In this document: positions 5,592 through 11,226 of the stretch, in pieces
How the letters are laid out: each line of letters starts with the position of its first letter
Numbering within the stretch: position 1 is the first letter of the stretch
NCBI GenBank assembly: GCA_029688905.1
Contig: JARULB010000006.1
Location: 62,001-126,000 of the forward strand
Length of the DNA: 64,000 nt
From: Balneolales bacterium ANBcel1
GTDB taxonomy: Bacteria > Bacteroidota > Rhodothermia > Balneolales > Natronogracilivirgulaceae
Reading direction: 5' to 3'
The notes under the pieces: model-generated
The model's database searches: none
Told to the model about the DNA's origin: nothing
The model's input: the letters and a program-made list of their open reading frames with translations, nothing else
Made by a program: the position numbers and the translations under genes

Positions 5592-5782
5592 AAGGGATTT
5601 TGAAGATTTCAGCGGGTTAACGGGACGATCGGACAGTTACGATATCTGTTTTGAGGTCCGGATACCGGATCAACCGGCCGCAACACCACGCCTCTTTGCA
5701 TGGCGATGCGGGATGCAATATATTCGGTTTGCAACAAAGATTCACAATATCCCGGAGCCTGCGGTACGTCCCTTTCCATTTC

Positions 5783-6211
5783 ATGATCAACCATCTCGCC
5801 TTTAACTGGTTTTTGCTGTTTTACAGCGTCCTTGCGCTTCTGCTGCTGGTTCAAGGGATGATCTGGCTGCTGCGGCCCGCCCCGTTTTACGACTATCTGC
5901 GCGATGCGGCGTCCAGTGACCGCCGCCCTCCGATGCTGCTAAAATCCGCCCGGTATCTGCTCCTGTTTTCGACGGCCTCCCTAGTGTTTGCTTTTGTTCT
6001 GCGCTCACCGGTTGACATCGTCTTCAGCCTGGGCCTGGTGAGTCTCAGCTTCACGGTATCCAACCTGCTCACCCACTGGCCCCGCTTGCGGCCGGCCATC
6101 CCCCGGTACCCCGACCGCCTGATGCGCTCTCTGCGCTACGCAGGCCTCTTTTGTCTATCCACCGCGATGGTACTGATGCTGCTGATCTACCGCCTGGCCA
6201 TCATGGGATAG
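5783..6211 (+). CDS. Four-helix membrane protein of unknown function
   Basis: A 142-residue hydrophobic protein. The ATG at 5783 (MINHLAFNWFLLFYSV) is chosen because upstream in-frame codons encode polar, non-membrane sequence. Four membrane helices are apparent (about residues 8-30, 55-73, 76-95 and 116-138) joined by short basic loops. I do not recognise a family. It precedes the exonuclease gene by about 110 bp on the same strand, so it may belong to the same transcript, but no functional link is visible. Confidence 0.65.
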   Translation: MINHLAFNWFLLFYSVLALLLLVQGMIWLLRPAPFYDYLRDAASSDRRPPMLLKSARYLLLFSTASLVFAFVLRSPVDIVFSLGLVSLSFTVSNLLTHWPRLRPAIPRYPDRLMRSLRYAGLFCLSTAMVLMLLIYRLAIMG

Positions 6212-6324: not shown

Positions 6325-7353
6325 ATGGCAGTAACACTCCAAAAATCGGGATACCACGGGATCTTCCTGCCTGAGGCAGACGTTGTGCTGGATGGAACCC
6401 CGCCGCGGAGCCGTAAAAGCCGTTCCGGAGACGAAAGCGAGTTCCATGTCTTCATCTCCCATGCGCACTCCGACCACGCCCCGCGCAGCCGCCGCATTCC
6501 GGTGTACGCCACACCCGCAACCGCCGACCTGATCCGCGCCCGCGGCCACAAGGGTCCGGTTCGTGAAGTACCGTTCGGCGAAAGCATCTGTTTACCGAAA
6601 GCCAGAGTCACCCTCTACCCCGCCGGACACATTCTGGGGTCTGCCATGATTTTTGTCGAAACGGATTCCGGATCGCTGCTGTACACCGGCGACTGCCGCA
6701 CACCTCCCTCCCCGGTAACCGAAGGGTTCGCGCTTCCCGATCGCGTCGTCGACGAACTGATCGTTGAGGCGACGTTCGGATTGCCCCTGTACAAATGGGC
6801 ACCGTACGACGAGCTGGCCGGAGACATCCGCCGTTTCGTATACGATTCGCTGGAAAACGGAGCCACACCGGTCATGCTCTGCTACAACCTGGGCAAGGCA
6901 CAGGAGGTGATGCACATCCTTGGTGACACGGATCCCCCGGTGCAGGTTCAGATTCACCCCGCCGGCGCAGAGCTCTGCCGCGTATATGAAAAACATGGCG
7001 TGCCGCTCGGTGACTGGGAGCCGCTCGACATCGAAACCCTGCCGGGCAAGACGCTCATCACCCCGTCCAATACCCTGGACTCCCGGCAGTTACGTGATAT
7101 ACCGAACCTGCGAATCGCCTATGTCTCGGGGTGGGCCACACTCGAAACCCGCGGTGCCGGCATGGCCGCCGACACCCTCATCCCGCTATCCGACCACCTG
7201 GACTTCTTCGAACTTCTCGGACTGTGCCGCCGAATTGGTCCGAAGAACATCCACCTGACCCACAGTCCGAACCCCGATGTTGCCGCCTGGTTTCTGCAGC
7301 AGGAAGGGTTCCGTGCCGGCAGGCTGGCGCTGGAGGAGAACCGGCATGAATAG
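6325..7353 (+). CDS. Metallo-beta-lactamase fold exonuclease, DNA ligase-associated type
   Basis: A 342-residue MBL-fold nuclease. Motifs: HAHSDH at 46-51 (metal-binding HxHxDH), PAGHILGSA with His102, Asp123 in YTGDC, and a late His291 in LSDH. The order and the FGLP and NLGKAQ motifs match the 'ligase-associated DNA exonuclease' family, normally encoded beside an ATP-dependent DNA ligase. The start MAVTLQKSGYHG at 6325 gives the family length; an upstream in-frame start at 6151 would overlap the membrane gene. Its stop overlaps the ATG of the ligase-like gene (ATGAATAG), implying translational coupling. All metal ligands are intact, so the enzyme should be active. Confidence 0.87.
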   Translation: MAVTLQKSGYHGIFLPEADVVLDGTPPRSRKSRSGDESEFHVFISHAHSDHAPRSRRIPVYATPATADLIRARGHKGPVREVPFGESICLPKARVTLYPAGHILGSAMIFVETDSGSLLYTGDCRTPPSPVTEGFALPDRVVDELIVEATFGLPLYKWAPYDELAGDIRRFVYDSLENGATPVMLCYNLGKAQEVMHILGDTDPPVQVQIHPAGAELCRVYEKHGVPLGDWEPLDIETLPGKTLITPSNTLDSRQLRDIPNLRIAYVSGWATLETRGAGMAADTLIPLSDHLDFFELLGLCRRIGPKNIHLTHSPNPDVAAWFLQQEGFRAGRLALEENRHE

Positions 7354-8488
7354 CACCGGCGACTCCCCGGCATGGTCCCCTCGATTGCATGTGCGAAATA
7401 ACGCCTTCCTGCGGCTGTGTGAAACTCTGGCCGCCGTCTCCGGTGCACGCAGCCGTCCGCAGAAAGCAGCGCTTTTTGCAGATTACCTGAAATCGCTGGA
7501 CGATACCGGCGACCTGGTGCGGGCCGTCTGCCTGGCTGCAAACTGCAGCGTCCCCGGGGAATCCGGTTCCGGCCGCGTCACATCCTCTGCGGCCGGGCAC
7601 CGTACCGTTGCGCTGGCGGCATCCGACTTCTGCGGCATCGATTACCAGCATGTGTTCCGGCCTTGTCGGGAGGCGACCGGGAGTGCCTCCGAAGCCATCC
7701 AAAAACTGATGGCGAACATGCCGATAGCGATAAAGCGACGCAAACCGGTGCAGCCGTCACTGCGGGATGTCATGCTGAACATCGAAACCCTGGCCTCCTC
7801 CATCGACCAAAAGGAAAAAATCCGGTTGCTGCAGCACCTCTGGCAGCAGATGACACCCGTGGAGATCCGGTATGTGATTCCCATGCTTCAAGCCGGGCGG
7901 ACCGGCTCCGTAACGGATCTGCAAACAGTGCTTGACAGCATCGCCCTGGCATTCGACGCCGACCCGGCGGCTGTCCGGCAGGCGCATCTGATAACGCGAA
8001 ACCCCGGCACTGCGGCACTGATGGCCAAACGCAAGGAACTCGACTCGCTGCTCTCCGGTACAGAAGCGCCGAAAACCATCACACTGACCACCCTGGTGAT
8101 GTATGCGCACAGCTGGACTTCCGGCCGATCCCGCATTCCCGGCGAACTCACCCTGGGGGTCCGGGTGGATGAGGATCCCCGCTACACCGAACAATTTATC
8201 CCAATCGGAAAAGCAGACGTGCCGGACGACGGGAGACTCAAGGATGAAGAAATGTCCAGGCTGAGTCTCCGGATCCGGGAACTTGCCGCCGACCGGTTCG
8301 GCTCCACCGTTTCGCTGAAACCCGGAATTGTCGTTGAAACCGAGTGCGAAACCCTTCAGCCGAACAGGCGCACCAAAGCCGGGTTGGTTCTCCACCTCCC
8401 TCGAATCCGGTCTATTCTATGGGATGCAGCACCCTCCGATACGCATACCCTCGGCCATGTAGAACGCCTGCGCAAATCTGATGAATGA
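7346..8488 (+). CDS. ATP-dependent DNA ligase-like protein lacking the adenylation domain
   Basis: A 380-residue protein starting at the ATG that overlaps the exonuclease stop. Residues about 17-235 resemble the N-terminal DNA-binding domain of ATP-dependent DNA ligases, including FADYLKSL, MTPVEIRYVIPML and AVRQAHLITRNPG. Residues about 245-380 resemble the C-terminal OB-fold domain: TLVMYAHSW, IPIGKADV, VVETECETLQPNRRTKAGLVLHLPRI. Between them, where the roughly 200-residue nucleotidyltransferase domain with motif I KxDG, III, IV and V should be, there are only about ten residues. No KxDG lysine exists, so self-adenylation is not expected. The frame is open throughout. It could be a DNA-binding accessory to the exonuclease, or a decaying ligase. 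The domain assignment is by eye. Confidence 0.75.
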   Translation: MNSTGDSPAWSPRLHVRNNAFLRLCETLAAVSGARSRPQKAALFADYLKSLDDTGDLVRAVCLAANCSVPGESGSGRVTSSAAGHRTVALAASDFCGIDYQHVFRPCREATGSASEAIQKLMANMPIAIKRRKPVQPSLRDVMLNIETLASSIDQKEKIRLLQHLWQQMTPVEIRYVIPMLQAGRTGSVTDLQTVLDSIALAFDADPAAVRQAHLITRNPGTAALMAKRKELDSLLSGTEAPKTITLTTLVMYAHSWTSGRSRIPGELTLGVRVDEDPRYTEQFIPIGKADVPDDGRLKDEEMSRLSLRIRELAADRFGSTVSLKPGIVVETECETLQPNRRTKAGLVLHLPRIRSILWDAAPSDTHTLGHVERLRKSDE

Positions 8489-8517: not shown

Positions 8518-8721
8518 TGATATGTGTCCCCGGTCGCTGCACACACTAACTCCATGCTAAATAATTGAACAGCATCCACTAAGACACATCCAACCAAATG
8601 GTTTATGAGAAAAACTTAATTTCCCAAATGCAGGCCAGATGATTAGCTTGTTTTTGGGATTGAGATAATATTTGGATGCGGCCGGAGATTCCTGCTGCAC
8701 TTGCGGTCATCATTATTTACC

Positions 8722-10083
8722 ATGGGAAAATATGCCGTAATCATTGTTTCCACACTTCTTCTGTCCCTGTCTGCATTCAGTTACGTACTGGTACAATCAT
8801 ACCGTGCGTCGGACATCAGAACCACGGAAACGTACAGTTATCACCAGGCGAATAATATTGCGCAAGCGGTACTGGCCATTGCTGTGCGTGAACTGCAGAG
8901 TGACAGCGAAAGTGACTTTATTCCCGGATCCGACAGCCAGATCTCCTATCCCTCCGGGGGTGGTTTCGAAGACTGGCCGGACATGGACGGCTCCTTCCGC
9001 CTTCTGTTTGAAAACTCCGGCGACAGCGTGATTTCCGTAGAGGCCACCGGCCGGTTTAACGATATCAGATATACTTCCAGGGTTGGTCTGCTGTTCAACG
9101 ACAGAAATCTTTTTGAGTGGCCGCAATTGCACCATGCGGTATTCTCCGATGGTAACATTACCTTGCTTCCGAGTGCGAAAATTAACGGGGATGTTGCCAC
9201 CAACAGCACAAATTCGAATGGCGTCACTTTCGATTGGGGTGCCGTTATTGACGGCAACCTATCAGTCGGTGCCGGATCCGACCCGGACTCCATTCTCATT
9301 ATCGCCCCTCCGGTTAGTCAGCACCTGCATTATGACGATGTTACCGGCCAGCGAAACAGGTTACCCCGGGAGATGACGCATGAAATGCCCCCGTTTCCCT
9401 CAATGCCCAACAGTGTCCTGACCGGCCGCAGTCTGCGCGTCACAACGGAAGCAGAACAGCACACCCGATCCACTTTTGAATGCAGTTTCTTCCATGGTCA
9501 CCGGGTTGAGGAGGTTGCGGTTGGCGAAAACAGAAGCATGACCCTGAATATCGGCAATCAGGATTGTGTGCTGCATACGCGTGATCTCAACATGACCCAG
9601 GGCAACCTGAATGTGGTCGGAGACGGGACCCTCACCATTTATGTGGAGAATCAGTTTCTCCTGGAGGGAAGCAGCACGCTGAACCAGAGCGGAGATTCCG
9701 ACAAGGTCATGATTTACTACGCCGGATCCAGCGAAATCGGGTTCGGTGGTGATATTCAAATGAACTCCAACCTTTTTGTGAAGGATGCCGACATCTCGGT
9801 CGGTGGCTCCAATCAGCTTCGGGGAAACATCATAAGCGGCGGAGATAAAATCACCTTCAGTGGCAGCGCCGGTACTGTATCCAGGGCCATATTTGCACCC
9901 AACGCGGATTTTGTTCTTGAAGGATCGGGCTACGTAAGAGGCGCGGTTGTGGCAAAAACCTTTACCGCATCCGGTGAATCCACCGTTGACTTTGATGACG
10001 AGTTTGAGGCAGATCTGCCCGATATCATTAACGAAGAAGAAGACGACTCACAGCCATTGTTCACTTTCACCCACTGGTATTAA
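8722..10083 (+). CDS. PilX-like surface protein with pilin-type N-terminal helix
   Basis: A 453-residue protein. A single hydrophobic helix (MGKYAVIIVSTLLLSLSAF...) opens it, followed by an extended alpha-helical stretch (YHQANNIAQAVLAIAVREL), as in PilX-like minor pilins. The C-terminal half (about residues 280-440) is glycine/serine-rich beta structure with short repeats (NQLRGNIISGG, SRAIFAPNADFVLEGSG, VRGAVVAKTFTASG) like the beta-solenoid domain found in PilX-type proteins. The ATG at 8722 is preferred over the TTG at 8701. No prepilin peptidase site is obvious. Two more proteins with N-terminal helices follow on the same strand. It probably sits at the cell envelope; its function is unknown. 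Confidence 0.7.
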   Translation: MGKYAVIIVSTLLLSLSAFSYVLVQSYRASDIRTTETYSYHQANNIAQAVLAIAVRELQSDSESDFIPGSDSQISYPSGGGFEDWPDMDGSFRLLFENSGDSVISVEATGRFNDIRYTSRVGLLFNDRNLFEWPQLHHAVFSDGNITLLPSAKINGDVATNSTNSNGVTFDWGAVIDGNLSVGAGSDPDSILIIAPPVSQHLHYDDVTGQRNRLPREMTHEMPPFPSMPNSVLTGRSLRVTTEAEQHTRSTFECSFFHGHRVEEVAVGENRSMTLNIGNQDCVLHTRDLNMTQGNLNVVGDGTLTIYVENQFLLEGSSTLNQSGDSDKVMIYYAGSSEIGFGGDIQMNSNLFVKDADISVGGSNQLRGNIISGGDKITFSGSAGTVSRAIFAPNADFVLEGSGYVRGAVVAKTFTASGESTVDFDDEFEADLPDIINEEEDDSQPLFTFTHWY

Positions 10084-10227
10084 CTACCCGGCTCCTGATA
10101 GCCCGTCCCCCGCCTGGCCGAAAGCCAGTGCGGTGGTAAACACGGTGACAAGGGCGCCGTCAGCTTACACTTCGGCTGATCATGCATTTACCTGTTTCCT
10201 TTACACCTTCCAGTTAATCTAACAGCC

Positions 10228-10671
10228 ATGGCAACCGGCCAGACATTACTCAGTATCGGCGCTTTTGTACTGCTTTCGATCATCGCCGTAAATATCAACC
10301 GGACTCATGTGCAGGCGGTGCACAATATGGTCGAAAACCAGGCCCGCACCGATGCACTTATCGTCGGGCGGGATCTGTGCGACCGGATTCAGCGCCATTC
10401 CTACAATCCGGCGTTCGATTTCAACCAGCTCGAAGCCGAATTCGGCAATCTGGACAATGTAAACGACCCCGGCCGCAGATGGTCCTTTACCTCCCCTTCA
10501 GGCTATACCCTCCATGCCACATTTGATATCTCCAATGAGCGAACCCTGGCACTGGGACAAACAGGCAGACTCGTAACCGTTGCCGTCTTTCTTGAAGAGG
10601 AGGGCGAGATTATTCCAAAAGCAACCTACGTAACGGCTGTCCTTCCGATTCATGAATCTGTAAACCCGTGA
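10228..10671 (+). CDS. Small pilin-like membrane-anchored protein
   Basis: A 147-residue protein whose N-terminus MATGQTLLSIGAFVLLSIIAVNINRTHV is a hydrophobic helix followed by a helical segment (NMVENQARTDALIVGRDLCDRIQ), the layout of pseudopilins. Its globular part (about residues 75-140) is predicted beta-rich. No canonical prepilin peptidase motif (G before F/M-x-x-x-E) is visible, so processing is doubtful. It sits between the PilX-like gene (144 bp upstream) and another helix-anchored gene (15 bp downstream). I do not recognise a named family. Confidence 0.6.
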   Translation: MATGQTLLSIGAFVLLSIIAVNINRTHVQAVHNMVENQARTDALIVGRDLCDRIQRHSYNPAFDFNQLEAEFGNLDNVNDPGRRWSFTSPSGYTLHATFDISNERTLALGQTGRLVTVAVFLEEEGEIIPKATYVTAVLPIHESVNP

Positions 10672-10686
10672 CAGCCCCCTGATACC

Positions 10687-11226
10687 ATGCAAGCGGATCT
10701 GATCATACCCCCCATTCTCGTCGGACTGCTGGTTCTGCTGATACTGAGAATCAATGTATTCATTCTTGAAACATCGGTAGAGAGCCGCCTTCATACGGAA
10801 CTGCAGTCCAGATCGTCGGTCGCCCTTGAACTGATCCAGGAACAGGTCAGAGACCTTGACAGCTTTCTTGCCGAACCCGACACCTTACTGCAATTCAGAA
10901 CAGCCTCCGGAGACCATGTAGCCATCGAGAGAGCAGAAAGAAACCTTCAGATCATCCGGCACCCGTTCAACCCGATCACCAACAGTCATGGCGCACCGGA
11001 CACCACCAGCCACCCAATGAGCCTGTCGGATCTGCGGTTTTTGGCACAACCCGATACGATCGACTTCAACTTTGCCCCGTTTCTCAGAATCAGCCTGGAG
11101 ACCGAAAGCCGTCCGGATCAGCATATTGACCCGGACGCCCATACCCCGCTTAAGCGATCCAGAGTACAAACGGATTTACTGCTCAGACACAGGGCTGCAA
11201 CCAACCCTGATCAGATCCCGCTCTGA
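10687..11226 (+). CDS. Pilin-like membrane-anchored protein, third of the cassette
   Basis: A 179-residue protein with an N-terminal hydrophobic helix (MQADLIIPPILVGLLVLLILRINVFILET), then a helical region rich in Glu and Leu (SVALELIQEQVRDLDSFLAEP), and a polar C-terminal half. It starts 15 bp after the preceding gene, so the two are probably one operon. The architecture resembles minor pilins or pseudopilins, but neither a processing site nor a family match can be claimed. The gene ends 76 bp before the converging Gfo/Idh/MocA gene. Confidence 0.55.
   Translation: MQADLIIPPILVGLLVLLILRINVFILETSVESRLHTELQSRSSVALELIQEQVRDLDSFLAEPDTLLQFRTASGDHVAIERAERNLQIIRHPFNPITNSHGAPDTTSHPMSLSDLRFLAQPDTIDFNFAPFLRISLETESRPDQHIDPDAHTPLKRSRVQTDLLLRHRAATNPDQIPL

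Follow-up and report, generated by a model that had tools for sequence, protein, structure and literature searches.

A DNA ligase remnant without an adenylation domain, encoded directly after a beta-CASP exonuclease in Balneolales

Introduction

For the operon that couples a LigB-type ATP-dependent DNA ligase to a beta-CASP exonuclease, neither the role nor the lesion that it targets is known (PMC10140301). A stretch of 64,000 nucleotides from Balneolales bacterium ANBcel1 (the window; contig JARULB010000006.1, positions 62,001 to 126,000) raises a question about this pair. Directly after the exonuclease gene lies a frame in which the ligase DNA-binding domain (DBD) runs into the ligase OB domain, the catalytic domain between them being absent. 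What is this protein, how often has it arisen, and what could a ligase that does not ligate do beside a nuclease?

Results

The locus consists of the following features, in window coordinates.

5651..6211, plus strand: small membrane protein upstream of the exonuclease (sequence comparison by eye)
6325..7353, plus strand: ligase-associated beta-CASP metallo-beta-lactamase exonuclease of the TIGR04122 family, 342 aa (TIGR04122 E 5.8e-54)
7346..8488, plus strand: adenylation-domain-less ligase remnant, 380 aa (ORF, profile, phmmer, and AlphaFold and Foldseek evidence)
7403..8059, plus strand: ligase DBD, residues 20-238, all helical (PF04675 1.8e-12; model helices 20-238)
8060..8077, plus strand: short linker, residues 239-244, at the site of the relatives' adenylation domain of about 200 residues (alignment to full ligases; model)
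8078..8482, plus strand: ligase OB domain and C-terminal helix, residues 245-379 (second stretch of the TIGR04120/PRK09247 match; model strands 245-357)
8417..8419, plus strand: codon 358, leucine replacing the motif VI arginine (alignment)

The remnant is a single frame of 380 codons whose ATG, at 7346, lies within the last codons of the exonuclease frame; the exonuclease stop is at 7351-7353, which gives a gene overlap of 8 bp. An earlier, sequence-only reading of the locus had noted that the ATG overlaps this stop. A protein similar to the small membrane protein precedes the exonuclease and a full ligase in G012, as judged by eye (G000 is the genome of the window; other handles of this form are related genomes). 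Just downstream, at 8701-11226, three successive genes encode proteins with hydrophobic N-terminal stretches and, by eye, a pilin or pilus-assembly (PilX-like) look.

Both halves of the remnant are of ligase descent. DNA_ligase_A_N (PF04675) matched residues 21-183 (E 1.8e-12, 48 bits against a cut-off of 24.6), and the LigB-type profiles TIGR04120 and PRK09247 matched in two stretches that skip the adenylation middle, the C-terminal stretch pairing residues 247-378 with profile positions 403-537. The TIGR04120 score of 61 bits lies below the curated cut-off of 400. The Pfam OB model gave no above-threshold match in the remnant; among profiles, the OB half is identified by TIGR04120/PRK09247 and the DBD by PF04675. 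In phmmer searches both halves aligned with archaeal ligases of known structure, 2cfm and 3gde. An AlphaFold2 model built with 38 related sequences (mean pLDDT 88.2, pTM 0.78) places helices at 20-238 and OB strands at 245-357 with a short linker between them, and all 50 matches listed for it by Foldseek against the PDB are DNA ligases. Nearly all of these matches span more columns than query residues, with the catalytic domain of about 200 residues as a gap. Alignment to full-length relatives puts the gap at the domain borders, from the end of the DBD to the first OB strand (LTTLVMYAHSW in the remnant, LDTVIMYAHAG in relatives). Outside it, of the columns that are invariant in relatives, 40 out of 59 in the DBD and 41 out of 64 in the OB domain are unchanged. 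The earlier proposal that one frame joins a ligase DBD to an OB domain is thus upheld by profile, pairwise and structural comparison.

The missing part is the one that defines the enzyme. An adenylation domain with the KxDG lysine is present in all 38 full Balneolales ligases that were aligned. PF01068, the profile of this domain, matched neither the remnant nor anything else in the whole genome of the window (3.32 Mb, 23 contigs, 98.4% complete), while the control and related genomes were positive. The motif VI arginine of the OB domain serves adenylation chemistry in ligases, and here it too has gone: the remnant reads ILWDAA (Leu 358) where family members read IRWDLS. The remnant therefore has the DBD (PF04675) and the OB domain of the LigB/TIGR04120 class and has neither its adenylation domain with the KxDG lysine nor its motif VI arginine; since these defining parts were looked for and are absent, it is derived from an ATP-dependent DNA ligase and is no longer one. 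Without adenylation domain, KxDG and motif VI arginine, it is predicted to be unable to seal DNA by the ligase mechanism.

To what extent is this build shared? The ligase family is matched in 109 of 129 Balneolales genomes, nearly all full ligases giving two separated matches, and a full LigB-type ligase is present in about 100 of the 129. A single continuous match, indicating the adenylation-less build, was obtained in four genomes (G000, G006, G035 and G032) that belong to four genera and two families. No further case was found among the matches listed for 245 genomes of the class or for 395 genomes sampled over the phylum, using a profile built from Balneolales sequences and, for the phylum, an E threshold of 1e-12. 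A plasmid search returned annotated ligases only, at about 30% identity. The residue at the motif VI arginine position is L in G000, A in G006, H in G035 and L in G032; the arginine is thus lost in all four and kept in 34 of the 35 full ligases having that region.

The exception among those 35 is G002 (family f1; L052:6263-8467), where a full-length ligase that retains the adenylation domain and KxDG lies next to an intact exonuclease. Its motif IV reads GSKGLILK (E to K) and its motif VI IHWDRD (R to H), and it is probably a point-mutated pseudo-ligase. Domain loss in four genomes and point changes in this one indicate, at the level of sequence, that catalysis has been given up by different routes within the Balneolales. 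In G001, of the same genus as the window genome, the ligase sequence is limited to a piece of the OB domain at the end of a contig (L032/L046), with motif VI IRGDLS, in which Arg is kept and Trp is changed to Gly. Full ligases of genus g9 (L051, L004 and L005, in G011, G014 and G012) have long low-complexity inserts in or beside the adenylation domain around motif I. In the same class, a full ligase of 985 aa in G176 (L086:2398-5352, minus strand) is enlarged by several hundred residues ahead of the DBD and inside it, and no exonuclease match was found in these.

The position of the remnant is as constant as its build. It lies directly after the exonuclease in all four genomes, with a stop/start overlap in the window, G035 and G032. 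In G006 exonuclease, DBD and OB domain form one uninterrupted frame of 481 codons that begins with the exonuclease C-terminus (TIGR04122 positions 234-321, RMMBL). In full-ligase genomes of family f5 (L087, L088 and L089) the exonuclease and ligase genes are 2-4 kb apart, and in the adenylation-less f5 genomes, G035 and G032, they overlap.

The overlap allows the number of losses to be approached through the exonuclease. In the exonuclease tree the window copy falls in family f1 (support 100/99) and the G035 copy in family f5 (100/99), beside exonucleases of full-ligase genomes, and a tree joining the two was rejected (p-AU 3e-58). As these copies belong to different families, the adenylation domain would have been lost at least twice independently, provided that the overlapping genes were inherited together. 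A grouping of the G032 exonuclease with that of G000 was not rejected (p 0.11), and G006 retains too little of the exonuclease to be placed; both may represent additional losses. In the DBD-OB tree a single origin of the four remnants is compatible with the data (p-AU 0.44), and the very long branches of the remnants leave this tree uninformative on the number of losses. A single ancestral adenylation-less protein is accordingly rejected for G000 and G035 by the linked exonuclease tree, the DBD-OB tree alone being insufficient. The remnant sequences are in line with the exonuclease tree: the best identity of the window remnant is to a full ligase of f1 (51% over shared columns), and that of the G035 remnant to a full ligase of f5 (38%). 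Of the suggestion that the frame reflects a recent in-frame deletion, the deletion itself is real; with four genomes and at least two apparent origins, it was not a one-off event.

We also asked how the exonuclease has fared. The window copy scores 183 bits against TIGR04122, under the curated cut-off of 325, which none of the 129 Balneolales genomes exceeds. It keeps 84 of 86 invariant columns, and its branch length of 0.54 is ordinary, compared with 2.61 for the remnant. The three complete copies of the remnant-linked exonuclease have lost none of the 16 conserved H/D/E columns (the metal ligands, HxHxDH among them), in agreement with the earlier observation that the metal ligands in the window are intact. 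Of the 129 genomes, 103 have both the exonuclease and the ligase-like gene, and 18 have neither. The ligase-like gene occurs alone in six, including the G006 fusion, where a contig end truncates the exonuclease; the exonuclease occurs alone in two, as a contig-end fragment in G093 and as a 27%-identical paralogue in G043, which was on that ground rejected as a ligase-free exonuclease genome. Over the 129 genomes, this pattern indicates that the exonuclease seems to be kept only with a ligase-like partner, whole or reduced.

Is the remnant itself maintained, or is it disappearing? End branches measure 2.6 for the window remnant and 6-10 for the other remnants, against a median of 0.21 for full ligases. 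Compared with the nearest full ligase, the window remnant has diverged by 0.39, 0.31 and 0.61 at first, second and third codon positions. When neutral change was simulated in a simple way to the same amino-acid identity, stops averaged 7.6 with at least one in every run, whereas none is observed, although some of the divergence may predate the loss. The open frame, the codon-position divergence and the simulation suggest that selection acts on the remnant, if more weakly than on a ligase.

The main rival to a functional reading is slow decay, in which a few lineages ceased to need the ligase, the catalytic domain was lost, and the rest persists as an open relic with little or no function. The very long branches of all four remnants fit relaxed constraint and are in keeping with it, and the point inactivation of the full-length ligase in G002 points the same way. 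So does the absence of the helicase TIGR04121 from all four remnant genomes, but the helicase is also absent from many full-ligase genomes and from about half of all Balneolales genomes, so its co-loss is weak evidence. Against decay stand four frames that remain open after large divergence, with no stops and the codon-position signature of selection, conserved core residues, and the retained overlap or fusion with the exonuclease. On balance we consider slow decay unlikely. Relatives with an intact KxDG domain do exist, and the loss is lineage-specific, as the sequence-only reading had anticipated for decay; yet the loss was repeated and the remainder retained.

Discussion

The same build in four genomes, with at least two probable origins and a frame kept open over large divergence, speaks for a non-catalytic protein that has been retained as a partner of the exonuclease, and the placement of the remnant straight after the exonuclease in every case, with fusion in G006, points to that partner in particular. 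We think it probable that the remnant is a non-catalytic accessory subunit of the overlapping beta-CASP exonuclease, which it would serve by docking and perhaps by holding DNA. In such a scheme, a LigB-type ATP-dependent ligase would lose its adenylation domain in frame at the domain borders and become a pseudo-ligase; the remnant would dock on the exonuclease through its DBD and help it to hold or choose DNA ends or gaps; and NAD-dependent LigA, which is present in all four genomes and is the only other DNA ligase found, would seal after the nuclease step.

The DBD is the likely dock, by analogy, because the DBD of human ligase IV binds the nuclease Artemis, a protein of the metallo-beta-lactamase/beta-CASP kind like the window exonuclease. 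DNA holding by DBD and OB domain is plausible but weaker, since the RxG motif of the DBD loop is kept in only two of the four remnants (G000, where it is shifted, and G032; not in G035 or G006) and in G032 the final helices of the DBD are gone, although the first nine and the OB domain fold well in the model. Loss of this minor-groove loop was itself rejected as evidence against DNA binding, because RxG is present, if shifted, in G000 and present in G032. Of the proposal that the remnant is a clamp for the nuclease, the non-catalytic partner thus finds favour, and clamping itself is no more than plausible.

Other roles fare less well than this partnership. Retention of both ligase DNA-binding modules and the presence of LigA would suit a DNA-binding regulator that acts apart from the exonuclease, for instance by competing with LigA or other repair proteins or by recruiting them; a gene that always adjoins the exonuclease, and is fused to it in G006, speaks for the exonuclease instead, and this role is improbable. 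A split ligase, its adenylation domain supplied in trans by another gene, is very improbable and was rejected: PF01068 had no match anywhere in any of the four remnant genomes (controls positive), and the motif VI arginine that partners the adenylation domain is lost. An anti-phage defence function was set aside after PADLOC gave no match. Deletion of the domain by an assembly or sequencing artefact has a negligible chance, as four separately assembled, diverged genomes share the build together with the concerted motif VI loss.

We regard it as evenly poised whether clean excision of the catalytic domain has repeatedly made ligases into dedicated non-catalytic subunits of beta-CASP nucleases, with a bacterial nuclease holoenzyme, fused in one lineage, as the outcome. 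If true, it would be a natural dissection of what a ligase does for its nuclease beyond sealing.

Among known systems the closest is the LigB-type or TIGR04120 "cisplatin damage response" ATP-dependent DNA ligase, with homologous DBD and OB domains (up to 51% identity) and the same pairing with a beta-CASP exonuclease; the remnant differs in lacking the whole adenylation domain and the motif VI arginine, and would be unable to ligate. The exonuclease is an ordinary Balneolales member of TIGR04122 with intact ligands, except that its ligase partner appears catalytically dead and that the helicase TIGR04121, a component of the LigB/Lhr helicase/phosphoesterase/exonuclease repair operon, was not found in the window genome (no match at 1e-100; best match 84.6 bits against a cut-off of 850). 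In the literature, of which our coverage is incomplete, we found no report of a DNA ligase without the whole catalytic domain yet with both flanking domains.

Opitutus terrae and Antarctic Dry Valley metagenomes encode fusions in which the exonuclease precedes the DBD of a full LigB ligase (PMC10140301), the same order as in G006. Those fusions carry the full ligase, whereas G006 joins exonuclease, DBD and OB domain without the adenylation domain. To our knowledge, this exonuclease was not previously known in fusion with a ligase that lacks the catalytic domain.

The human LigIV DBD binds Artemis (PMC3664939, PMC9956705), and yeast Dnl4 continues to promote end joining when it is catalytically dead (PMC3694833); this protein and vertebrate Lig4 are precedents for a non-catalytic ligase role (PMC3694833, PMC10858965). 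These systems involve full-length ligases in eukaryotic end joining; by analogy, they offer parallels for a ligase DBD that binds a metallo-beta-lactamase nuclease and for a ligase that works without catalysis. The remnant can be regarded as a variant of the LigB-exonuclease pair that has kept all but ligation, a useful natural experiment on that pair. Where ligation has been discarded and the two DNA-binding halves stay beside the nuclease, what the ligase contributes structurally can be told apart from what it contributes by catalysis, and nuclease docking, for which the LigIV-Artemis contact is a parallel, becomes a directly testable hypothesis.
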